Shown here in pieces: positions 57,663 to 59,326 of a stretch of DNA of 64,000 nt; position 1 is the stretch's first letter; each line of letters begins with the position of its first letter. The notes under the pieces are model-generated. The model had not been told where the DNA came from. It worked only from the letters and a program-made list of their open reading frames with translations, and made no database searches. Source of the DNA: Lachnospiraceae bacterium (GTDB lineage Bacteria > Bacillota > Clostridia > Lachnospirales > Lachnospiraceae); the NCBI GenBank assembly GCA_014239155.1, contig JAAZZQ010000085.1, positions 62,001 through 126,000 on the forward strand. Direction: 5' to 3'. A program made the position numbers and the translations under genes.

Positions 57663-58115
57663 GTGCCTGTGATGGCAATTATGATAGGGATTCAGGCAAG
57701 TGGTAAAAGCACTTTCTGCAAAAATTATCTGACAGAGTATGAGAGGATTAACCTAGATACGCTGCATACACGAAATAAAGAGAACACAGCGATAGAGGAG
57801 GCGTTTGGGGCAAAGCGGGATATGGTGGTTGACAATACTAATCCGACAGTGCAGGACAGAGAAAAATATATCCGCAGAGCAAAAGAAAATGGATATCGCG
57901 TGGTTGGTTATTTTATGCAGTCAAAATTGCAGGAGTGCATCGCGCGGAACGAACAAAGACAGGGAAAGGCAAAAGTTCCAACAAGGGCAATTGCAACTAC
58001 CTCAAATCAGCTAGAAATGCCCTCTTATCAGGAAGGGTTTGATGTGTTGTATTTTGTGCGTCTTACAAAGTCGGGAATCTTGGTTGAAAAATGGAAGGAG
58101 GAAAGTTTTGAATGA
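57663..58115 (+). CDS. Polynucleotide kinase-like P-loop protein
   Basis: 150 residues starting at GTG, with AAAGGGGTGA upstream. Order and wording follow the kinase domain of T4 Pnk and eukaryotic PNKP: Gly-Ile-Gln-Ala-Ser-Gly-Lys-Ser-Thr (Walker A), Asn-Leu-Asp-Thr-Leu (catalytic Asp), Val-Val-Asp-Asn-Thr-Asn-Pro-Thr, Arg-Glu-Lys-Tyr-Ile-x-x-Ala-Lys, Gly-Tyr-Phe, a lid Arg-Asn, and Lys-Val-Pro...Pro-Ser-Tyr-Gln-Glu-Gly-Phe-Asp. The phosphatase domain is absent. Expected to put phosphate on a 5'-OH RNA or DNA end. It overlaps the Thg1-like gene by 4 bases, so the two are almost certainly functionally linked. A sugar or nucleoside kinase is the alternative. Confidence 0.85.
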   Translation: MPVMAIMIGIQASGKSTFCKNYLTEYERINLDTLHTRNKENTAIEEAFGAKRDMVVDNTNPTVQDREKYIRRAKENGYRVVGYFMQSKLQECIARNEQRQGKAKVPTRAIATTSNQLEMPSYQEGFDVLYFVRLTKSGILVEKWKEESFE

Positions 58116-58873
58116 ATTTTGACGAGTTGGATAAGAAAATGCGCGTGTATGAGCAGTCGTTGGATCAGATTATTTTGCCAGAGATTTATCTGGTTGCGCG
58201 GCTTGACGGCAGAGGCTTTACAAGACTCACCAAGGAAATATGCCATTTTGAGGCGCCTTTTGACATCCGTTTTCGAGATTTGATGGTGCACACAACCCAA
58301 AGTCTGATGGATTGCGGATTTCGTGTTGTGTATGGTTTTACAGAGAGTGATGAAATCTCACTATTGTTTGCGTTAGGGGAGAATACCTTTGGAAGAAAAG
58401 TGAGAAAATATAATTCGACATTGGCTGGGGAGGCGAGTGCTGCCTTTTCACTAGAACTTGGCAGGGTGGCTACATTTGACTGCAGGATTGTGCCGCTGCC
58501 TACGGTGGAGCGTGTGCAGGACTATTTTCTGTGGCGTCAGGAAGATGCACATAGAAATGCATTGAATGCACATTGTTACTGGATGTTAAGAAAGGAGGGG
58601 CAGTCTGTACAGGAGGCTACAAAAGCGTTGGAAGGGCAGTCGGTAAGTTTTAAAAATGAGCTTCTTTTTTCTAAGGGGATTAATTTCGATCAGCTTCCGG
58701 CATGGCAGAAGCGAGGAGTTGGGATTTGGAAAGAACAATATGAAAAGGAAGGATTTAATCCTGTGACACAAAGTCAAGAGAAGGCAGTTAGAAAACGATT
58801 GCATGTTTCGTATGAGCTTCCGCTTAGAGAGGCTTACGCAGAGATGATTGCAGAATTTTGTAAAGGAATTTAG
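58112..58873 (+). CDS. Thg1-like 3'-5' RNA polymerase (tRNA-His guanylyltransferase family)
   Basis: 253 residues, ATG inside the previous stop. Catalytic landmarks of Thg1: Ala-Arg-Leu-Asp-Gly-Arg-Gly-Phe (first metal Asp near residue 29), Gly-Phe-Thr-Glu-Ser-Asp-Glu-Ile-Ser (second metal pair near 76-77), Arg-Gln-Glu-Asp-Ala-His-Arg-Asn-Ala-Leu, and Lys-Arg-Gly-Val-Gly-Ile. Family members add nucleotides in the 3'-5' direction; bacterial Thg1-like proteins can rebuild 5'-truncated tRNAs using the 3' strand as template. Bacterial tRNA-His already has an encoded G-1, so repair is a more likely role than G-1 addition. The PNK-like partner would supply a 5'-phosphate. Confidence 0.92.
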   Translation: MNFDELDKKMRVYEQSLDQIILPEIYLVARLDGRGFTRLTKEICHFEAPFDIRFRDLMVHTTQSLMDCGFRVVYGFTESDEISLLFALGENTFGRKVRKYNSTLAGEASAAFSLELGRVATFDCRIVPLPTVERVQDYFLWRQEDAHRNALNAHCYWMLRKEGQSVQEATKALEGQSVSFKNELLFSKGINFDQLPAWQKRGVGIWKEQYEKEGFNPVTQSQEKAVRKRLHVSYELPLREAYAEMIAEFCKGI

Positions 58874-58888
58874 TTAGGAGGAAAAAAG

Positions 58889-59326
58889 ATGAAATTTGAA
58901 CAGTTGCAAAAGGATATGATGGCGGCAATGAAAGCAAGAGACAAAGTGCGAAAAGATGCGCTCTCTGCACTTGTATCGGCAGCAAAGAAAGCTGCGATAG
59001 ACGAAGGTTGCCGAGAGAATATTAGTGAGGAGATTGTTGACCGCATTATTCTGAAAGAGATGAAGTCTGTAAAGGAGCAGATAGAAACTTGCCCTGATTC
59101 GAGAGCAGATTTAAAGCAGGAATATCAGGCAAGATTTGATATTTTTCAAGAGTATGCGCCCAAAATGATGTCCGCAGAAGAGATAGAGGCCTTTATTATG
59201 GAAAAATTTGCGGATATCGCTGCACAGAAAAACAAAGGAATGATTATGAAGAGCATAATGCCGGAGTTAAAAGGAAAGGCAGATGGAAGTGTAATTAGCC
59301 AAGTGGTGGCAAGACTCTGTCAATAA
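58889..59326 (+). CDS. GatB/YqeY domain protein
   Basis: 145 residues, AGGAGG before the ATG, 15 bases after the Thg1-like stop. Helical YqeY pattern throughout: Met-Lys-Ala-Arg-Asp-Lys-Val-Arg-Lys-Asp-Ala-Leu, Tyr-Ala-Pro-Lys-Met-Met-Ser-Ala-Glu-Glu-Ile, and Lys-Gly-Lys-Ala-Asp-Gly-Ser. The domain is shared with the tRNA-binding tail of GatB, and free-standing YqeY is thought to interact with tRNA, though its role is unproven. Its place behind a tRNA-directed polymerase suggests a common RNA substrate. Confidence 0.93.
   Translation: MKFEQLQKDMMAAMKARDKVRKDALSALVSAAKKAAIDEGCRENISEEIVDRIILKEMKSVKEQIETCPDSRADLKQEYQARFDIFQEYAPKMMSAEEIEAFIMEKFADIAAQKNKGMIMKSIMPELKGKADGSVISQVVARLCQ

Follow-up and report, generated by a model that had tools for sequence, protein, structure and literature searches.

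The DNA analyzed here, a window of 64,000 nucleotides from contig JAAZZQ010000085.1 of a Lachnospiraceae bacterium, contains three plus-strand genes that overlap or nearly abut and encode a P-loop kinase, a Thg1-like protein (TLP) of the 3'-5' polymerase family, and a YqeY-like protein. The kinase (57663–58115), a single domain of the polynucleotide kinase (PNK) type as judged from Pfam, alignment, and a structural model, has 150 residues; the TLP (58112–58873; Pfam, profile, and model) has 253 residues, and the YqeY-like protein (58889–59326; Pfam) has 145. The kinase and Thg1 genes overlap by 4 bases, and 15 nucleotides separate Thg1 from YqeY; these reading frames, coordinates, and spacings agree exactly with a preliminary description of the locus. 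The kinase gene starts with GTG, whereas seven aligned relatives have ATG at this position. The analysis centered on the kinase–Thg1 pair and on its possible role in RNA repair.

The best match of the kinase, both by sequence and by modeled fold, is the kinase domain of mammalian PNKP (3zvl, 3u7g, and 1yj5), which likewise has the Walker A motif, the Asp of NxDTL, and DNTNP, as well as an EGF stretch close to its end. Its Pfam matches are AAA_33 (2.7e-16) and Zeta_toxin (2.7e-7). Twelve kinases were aligned, and the residues conserved in all 12 include G9, G14, and K15 of the Walker A motif (GIQASGKS, residues 9–16; 57687–57710), Asp32 (57756–57758), which aligns with the Asp in the NRDTL stretch of mammalian PNKP, the DNTN motif (residues 57–60; 57831–57842), which aligns with PNKP DNTNP, and Arg99 (57957–57959), all encoded on the plus strand. 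We take Asp32 to be the general base and Arg99 to be the lid arginine, and we assume that the roles of the PNK motifs (Walker A, catalytic Asp, DNTN-type motif, and lid Arg) fall to K15, D32, D57–N60, and R99. With all four of these elements present and a P-loop kinase fold that, in sequence and model, is nearest to known PNKs, the protein is probably of the polynucleotide-kinase type, as had been proposed from its Asp-Asn-Thr-Asn motif and lid; T4 Pnk ranks below PNKP among its matches.

No phosphatase domain was found in the kinase by Pfam and NCBIfam scans, which bears out the earlier description. The models for bifunctional kinase–phosphatases reached only 56 bits (TIGR01663, cut-off 502.8) and 32.6 bits (TIGR04075, cut-off 750), and the matches cover the kinase part only. 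The protein thus differs from mammalian PNKP, which has further domains including a phosphatase, in being a single 150-residue domain without one. T4 Pnk and bacterial Pnkp/Hen1, whose kinases heal 5' ends ahead of further repair, belong to the same kinase superfamily, and the kinase profile matches 1ly1 and 4xrp. In contrast to these systems, the operon studied here contains no phosphatase, ligase, or Hen1.

A different reading is that the P-loop protein phosphorylates small molecules, proteins, or aminoacyl-tRNA (like zeta toxins, sugar kinases, or PSTK) and serves another pathway or forms part of a toxin–antitoxin pair. The Zeta_toxin family (PF06414) indeed passes its cut-off (30.7 versus 22.3 bits), but the match spans just 75 of 199 positions and is weaker than that to AAA_33. 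Zeta toxins are paired with an epsilon antitoxin and have UDP-sugar kinase activity; here, the gene adjoining the kinase encodes a Thg1-like protein. The NCBIfam model for PSTK scored 34.7, far under its cut-off of 290.5, and the PNK group outscores other P-loop kinases by both sequence and structure, T4 Pnk excepted. As described below, every strong match to this kinase lies beside a Thg1 gene. We therefore regard a metabolite kinase, zeta toxin, or PSTK as quite unlikely.

The second protein matches the Pfam families Thg1 (3.9e-30) and Thg1C (7.1e-18), and its best profile match is the TLP of Bacillus thuringiensis (4e-84), followed by 5axk (1e-46), which we take to be the Methanosarcina TLP. 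The model has a pLDDT of 90.9 and fits 5axk with a TM score of 0.81. All 183 Thg1 sequences from the loci studied have R30, D32, S79, D80, E81, K99, and R125. The protein thus combines both Thg1 domains and the TLP fold with the catalytic carboxylates and the transfer-site Arg and Lys, and profile and modeled fold support its proposed identity as a Thg1-like protein of the 3'-5' polymerase family. Compared with the B. thuringiensis TLP (BtTLP; 4kgk/4kgm), it is 23 to 26% identical in Foldseek alignments, and the stretch that follows its WRQ motif is longer, as it is in 5axk. The metal-binding and serine residues are the same in both proteins: Asp32 (58205–58207, plus strand) corresponds to the metal-binding D30 of BtTLP, and Ser79-Asp80-Glu81 (58346–58354, plus strand) comprises the activation serine and metal-binding carboxylates, these roles being taken from the BtTLP study (PMC3701042).

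A marked difference from BtTLP is Ala48 (58253–58255, plus strand), which takes the place of Lys43, the residue that positions ATP (PMC3701042). The profile alignment is plain at this point because of the neighboring PFD. According to that study, the K43A variant of BtTLP adenylylates truncated tRNA at 0.12 per min instead of 0.91 per min, whereas guanylylation of full-length tRNA is unchanged at 0.022 (PMC3701042). Since the variant still guanylylates, Ala48 leaves the assignment as a TLP standing, and the K43-type lysine is a common rather than a defining feature of the family. Lys or Arg occupies this position in only 3 of the 87 sequences linked to a kinase; among the others, 3 of 19 cellular and 71 of 77 viral sequences have it, so that its absence is a trait of the clade rather than of kinase linkage. 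By analogy with the BtTLP variant, the Ala48 clade probably activates the 5' end with GTP.

The family name and its founding function would suggest the eukaryotic role for the Thg1-like gene, namely addition of G-1 to tRNA-His. The tRNA genes of the source genome were identified by a tRNA family search and ARAGORN, and its own tRNA-His encodes both G-1 and C73 (L233:1722-1796, ARAGORN). Hence Thg1 is not needed for maturation of this tRNA, and the tRNA-His without an encoded G-1 that would go with a eukaryote-type Thg1 is not what this genome has. An earlier tRNA-His pattern search had given one match, not a tRNA, compared with two in a reversed control. Moreover, Thg1 occurs in only 12 of 36 genus genomes (within 13 of 60), the source genome included, and BtTLP is reported to repair truncated tRNAs of several kinds (PMC3701042). 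A role in G-1 addition is thus hardly credible.

Linkage between the two genes was counted in 23 relative loci (including that of the source genome, L001), 80 named genome loci, and 80 viral loci. Of 557 relatives, the named loci comprise the 80 whose Thg1 is closest to the one studied here, and several share genomes with the 23; L024 and L025 were dropped, their Thg1 matches being under the cut-off and no Thg1 being found by profile. Kinase and Thg1 genes lie on the same strand and within 600 nucleotides of each other in 19 of 23 relative, 65 of 80 named, and 3 of 80 viral loci, and a limit of 300 nucleotides leaves 19, 64, and 2, respectively. When Thg1 sequences are grouped at 80% identity, 53 groups are cellular, of which 45 have the link, and 70 are viral, of which 3 have it. 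In the reverse direction, with only the kinase profile as the query, 38 genus genomes yielded 12 strong matches and 396 family genomes six more (at most nine candidates scored per genome). All 18 strong kinase matches in the genomes searched have Thg1 beside them. The linkage is thus conserved in both directions. L015 and L016, which belong to a different family of the phylum, retain it with swapped gene order, and kinase and Thg1 trees agree with r = 0.54, compared with 0.40 for the best of 1000 shuffles (78 pairs, after removal of seven duplicates from 85).

In wider samples, Thg1 is likewise patchy, being present in 10 of 298 family-sample genomes (eight above the cut-off) and 3 of 398 phylum-sample genomes, the source genome included in each. 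The DNA upstream of the pair varies between genus members. This patchy occurrence and the differing upstream DNA fit horizontal movement, and the pair apparently moves between species. None of the kinase, Thg1, and YqeY proteins matched a PADLOC defense model at E 0.01.

Repair genes recur beside Thg1 in relatives, both on plasmids and where the kinase is absent. Five mobile records with a Thg1 match were opened (4 of 20 plasmid and 1 of 111 phage records). A plasmid of Deinococcus taeanensis has a kinase (36% identical) and Thg1 with a 4-nucleotide overlap, and Hen1 and an RlaP-family gene lie slightly downstream. On a Thiodictyon plasmid, Thg1 overlaps RlaP. By annotation, the other three records have neither kinase nor RlaP adjacent, many neighbors being labeled “hypothetical.” Fifteen of the named loci lack the kinase, and in eight of these (Butyrivibrio/Oribacterium records), members of one gene cluster lie directly behind Thg1; the representative of this cluster (L038) is a Deinococcus-type RNA ligase (162.7 bits versus the TIGR02306 cut-off of 151.15). 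Within the same group, a phosphoesterase cluster (7 loci) and an Rnl1-like ligase cluster (6 loci) recur near Thg1, as judged from scanned representatives. KptA adjoins Thg1 in L037 and RlaP in L049, and in L089 (7574-8011), a PIN-domain nuclease-family gene (PF13470, 1.4e-14) overlaps the Thg1 start in the kinase's place. The kinase-less L039 ends at a contig edge. By scan, RtcB-family genes lie upstream of Thg1 at 0.9 kb in L032 and 2.6 kb in L031; L040 has a third gene of this cluster, more than 4.5 kb from Thg1. Repair-family partners of this kind speak for RNA repair.

Among the relative loci, four are unlinked. One (L023) has a microbial PARG gene upstream; the other three (L007, L014, and L019) represent another Thg1 type of this bacterial family, which is distant (29 to 32% identical) and kinase-less, and no repair partner was found among the neighbors scanned. 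L014 lies beside an IS110-family transposase and L019 beside a DNA methylase.

The neighbors also bear on whether the substrate could be DNA, the kinase healing 5'-OH DNA ends and Thg1 acting on DNA or RNA–DNA hybrids. Mammalian PNKP, the closest fold, works on DNA, according to the titles of its structure entries. Relatives have ligases, KptA, RlaP, and Hen1 next to Thg1, all of them RNA-repair families by name, and we consider DNA end repair very unlikely.

Given the PNK-type kinase, the TLP, the intact catalytic residues of both, their two-way linkage, and the RNA-repair partners in some relatives, we interpret the pair, with a probability of roughly 0.7, as an RNA 5'-end repair module of two genes that apparently moves horizontally. 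As its family and fold suggest, the kinase would phosphorylate the 5'-OH produced by metal-independent RNA cleavage. The Thg1-like protein would then activate the 5'-phosphate with a nucleotide, probably GTP, and may add missing nucleotides in the 3'-to-5' direction, templated by the other strand of a stem, for example the tRNA acceptor stem, as reported for the B. thuringiensis relative. For a shortened 5' strand near the RNA 5' end, kinase and polymerase could suffice and no ligase would be required, whereas after an internal cut, a ligase from another locus of the genome would take over the product. Putative elements of this scheme are that the substrate is RNA and not DNA, that tRNA is the RNA chiefly repaired, and that the damage comes from toxins or defense nucleases (RNases leaving 5'-OH). 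The earlier proposal that the operon mends RNAs is thus supported in part, for the kinase and Thg1; YqeY probably does not belong to the module, and the genome does possess a ligase.

Several observations weigh against this interpretation. The P-loop fold is common to metabolite kinases and zeta toxins, the Pfam Zeta_toxin cut-off is passed, kinases acting on DNA have the same fold as those acting on RNA, and the activities of both proteins are predicted from sequence and models. Choosing the best 80 of 557 loci means that close kin are over-counted, and two of the 65 linked loci are weak: the kinase frame of L097 is only partial, and the genes of L103 are 560 nucleotides apart with an opposite frame between them. 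Such a kinase is missing within 600 nucleotides of Thg1 in 77 of 80 viral loci, and the mirror-tree agreement is only moderate. Four weaker kinase matches in the genus (L198-L201, E 2.5e-6 to 8.4e-6), which were excluded from the count of 18, have no adjoining Thg1; three of them are in frames of 403 to 404 residues, at least one of which is an HD-kinase. L085 and L105 show no RNA-repair partner in the single neighbor scanned for each; L091 is the remaining kinase-less locus.

The idea of RNA repair by a kinase–Thg1 pair is not new. Anantharaman, Iyer, and Aravind predicted bacterial Thg1–PNK operons in 2010 and proposed that, in RNA repair, Thg1 receives its 5'-phosphate through the kinase; a few of the operons also include a MACRO protein or an RNA ligase (PMC2904730). 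The pair described here has the same two families adjacent, across lineages and including the Deinococcus plasmid; the word YqeY is absent from the text of that paper (PMC2904730). The 2013 paper on BtTLP discusses possible roles of bacterial TLPs in tRNA quality control and reports that TLPs restore 5'-truncated tRNAs in vitro with the 3' acceptor strand as the template (PMC3701042). Set against the 2010 account as far as its text was available, the Ala at the ATP-lysine position of this clade and the linkage counted both ways would appear to be additions. A literature search found no assay of the pair in titles and abstracts, most subscription papers being outside the literature searched. 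With every strong kinase match in the genomes searched lying beside Thg1, this compact pair from gut Clostridia offers a clean system for a biochemical test of the 2010 prediction, and if the prediction is true, a 3'-5' polymerase joins the RNA-repair toolkit that answers RNA-cutting toxins.

The 2010 paper also offered generation of 5'-App for ligation as an alternative (PMC2904730). The kinase would then make a 5'-phosphate that the Thg1-like protein merely caps (App- or Gpp-RNA) for a separate ligase or for end protection, with little or no nucleotide addition in the cell. The ligase-family gene behind Thg1 in the eight Butyrivibrio/Oribacterium relatives is consistent with this, as are the RNA ligase and RtcB-like genes of the source genome. 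On the other hand, R30 and K99, which correspond to yeast R27 and K96 of the nucleotidyl-transfer step (roles from PMC3701042), are invariant, and the third transfer residue, yeast R133, probably equals the invariant R125, matched by eye. These residues and the in vitro extension of truncated tRNAs by TLPs make a helper of ligation unlikely. A sharper version of the repair module is more tentative than the general one and rather doubtful: a self-sufficient, ligase-free system with a GTP-activated TLP, in which Lys43 is naturally Ala, could act as mobile immunity against toxins or defense nucleases that cut the acceptor stem. We know of no dedicated repair system for acceptor-stem cuts.

The preliminary description had seen no RNA ligase, which is correct for the operon, but the genome encodes one elsewhere along with RtcB-like genes. 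A PF09414 RNA ligase frame of about 270 residues (G000:C45, L288:1375-2184, minus strand) has as its immediate neighbor a gene that combines an HD domain with a P-loop kinase domain (G000:C45, L200:1480-2655, minus strand); judged by their domains, the two may constitute a second, ligase-type RNA repair pair. RtcB-family matches occur at three places, namely a 502-residue frame whose match extends over almost all of the model and two shorter frames, each of about 400 residues, that come near RtcB in NCBIfam and fall under its cut-offs.

YqeY (Pfam match 2.4e-25) had been presented as the third member of the operon, a claim that comparison with relatives does not support. It adjoins the pair in 5 of 12 genus genomes with the pair (G000, G022, G023, G033, and G749, the last being L026) and in 2 of the 80 named loci (L026 and L028, both of the source genus). 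It lies on another contig than the pair in G003, G015, and G018 and occurs without Thg1 in G013 and G035. YqeY was accordingly rejected as a module member and is probably a local neighbor, not a conserved part. In total, 9 of 36 genus genomes, the source genome included, have YqeY, and seven of these have kinase-linked Thg1 (Fisher p 0.001, uncorrected for kinship), so its association with the pair is more than nothing, but is not one of adjacency.

A promoter-like site, TTGACT-17-TAAGAT (57550–57578, plus strand), precedes the kinase gene and matches 9 of 12 consensus positions. Its hexamers and 17-nucleotide spacing are identical in L002, the sole syntenic relative. The site put forward as the one good promoter therefore exists, but the region has 10 promoter-like sites versus 6.5 ± 3.1 in shuffles, which is not clearly above chance, and an alternative at 57512–57540 is nearer to the consensus (10 of 12). 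A MATE-family transporter gene (59351–60643, plus strand) starts 24 nucleotides past YqeY. Since a simple scan reported no terminator-like site in between, the transcript need not end at YqeY and may include the MATE gene.

Upstream, a divergent gene pair (55305–57220, minus strand) encodes a ParB-N-like protein (just below the cut-off) and a PAPS-reductase/DUF3440 protein, presumably of the IbrB/IbrA type. The positions of the DUF3440 gene and this MATE gene are kept only in L002 among L001-L025 (the source locus, L001, aside), and both MATE and IbrA/IbrB were rejected as module members. A different MATE, about 28% identical, lies upstream in several relatives. WYL-domain regulators occur near kinase–Thg1 pairs in several gut Clostridia, in two clusters of four loci each (scanned representatives L087:8796-10028 and L045:10027-10938).

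The Butyrivibrio/Oribacterium loci (L034-L036, L038, L041, L048, L053, and L081) constitute a distinct cassette of Thg1 and the Deinococcus-type RNA ligase, many with phosphoesterase, Rnl1-like ligase, and helix-turn-helix (HTH) genes. That of L034 additionally has a 303-residue P-loop protein, which gave no match in a PDB sequence search and is therefore not called a T4-type Pnkp. The RNA-repair survey of Burroughs and Aravind from 2016 (PMC5062991) may already cover such cassettes.

Elsewhere in the source genome are three tandem tRNA-like genes of 114 to 119 nucleotides, whose inserts consist of a hairpin plus TTGCAGCAA (G000:C82:107381-107774, minus strand; L291:9382-9775). Mini-introns were set aside as a reading of these inserts; Rfam points to YrlA (Y RNA-like), with scores of 31.6 and 30.8, under the gathering score of 69. 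The adjacent gene encodes 536 residues with Pfam DUF2828/DUF7788 matches and resembles Ro60/TROVE by eye, so that this gene and the tRNA-like genes are possibly a divergent Ro–YrlA system.
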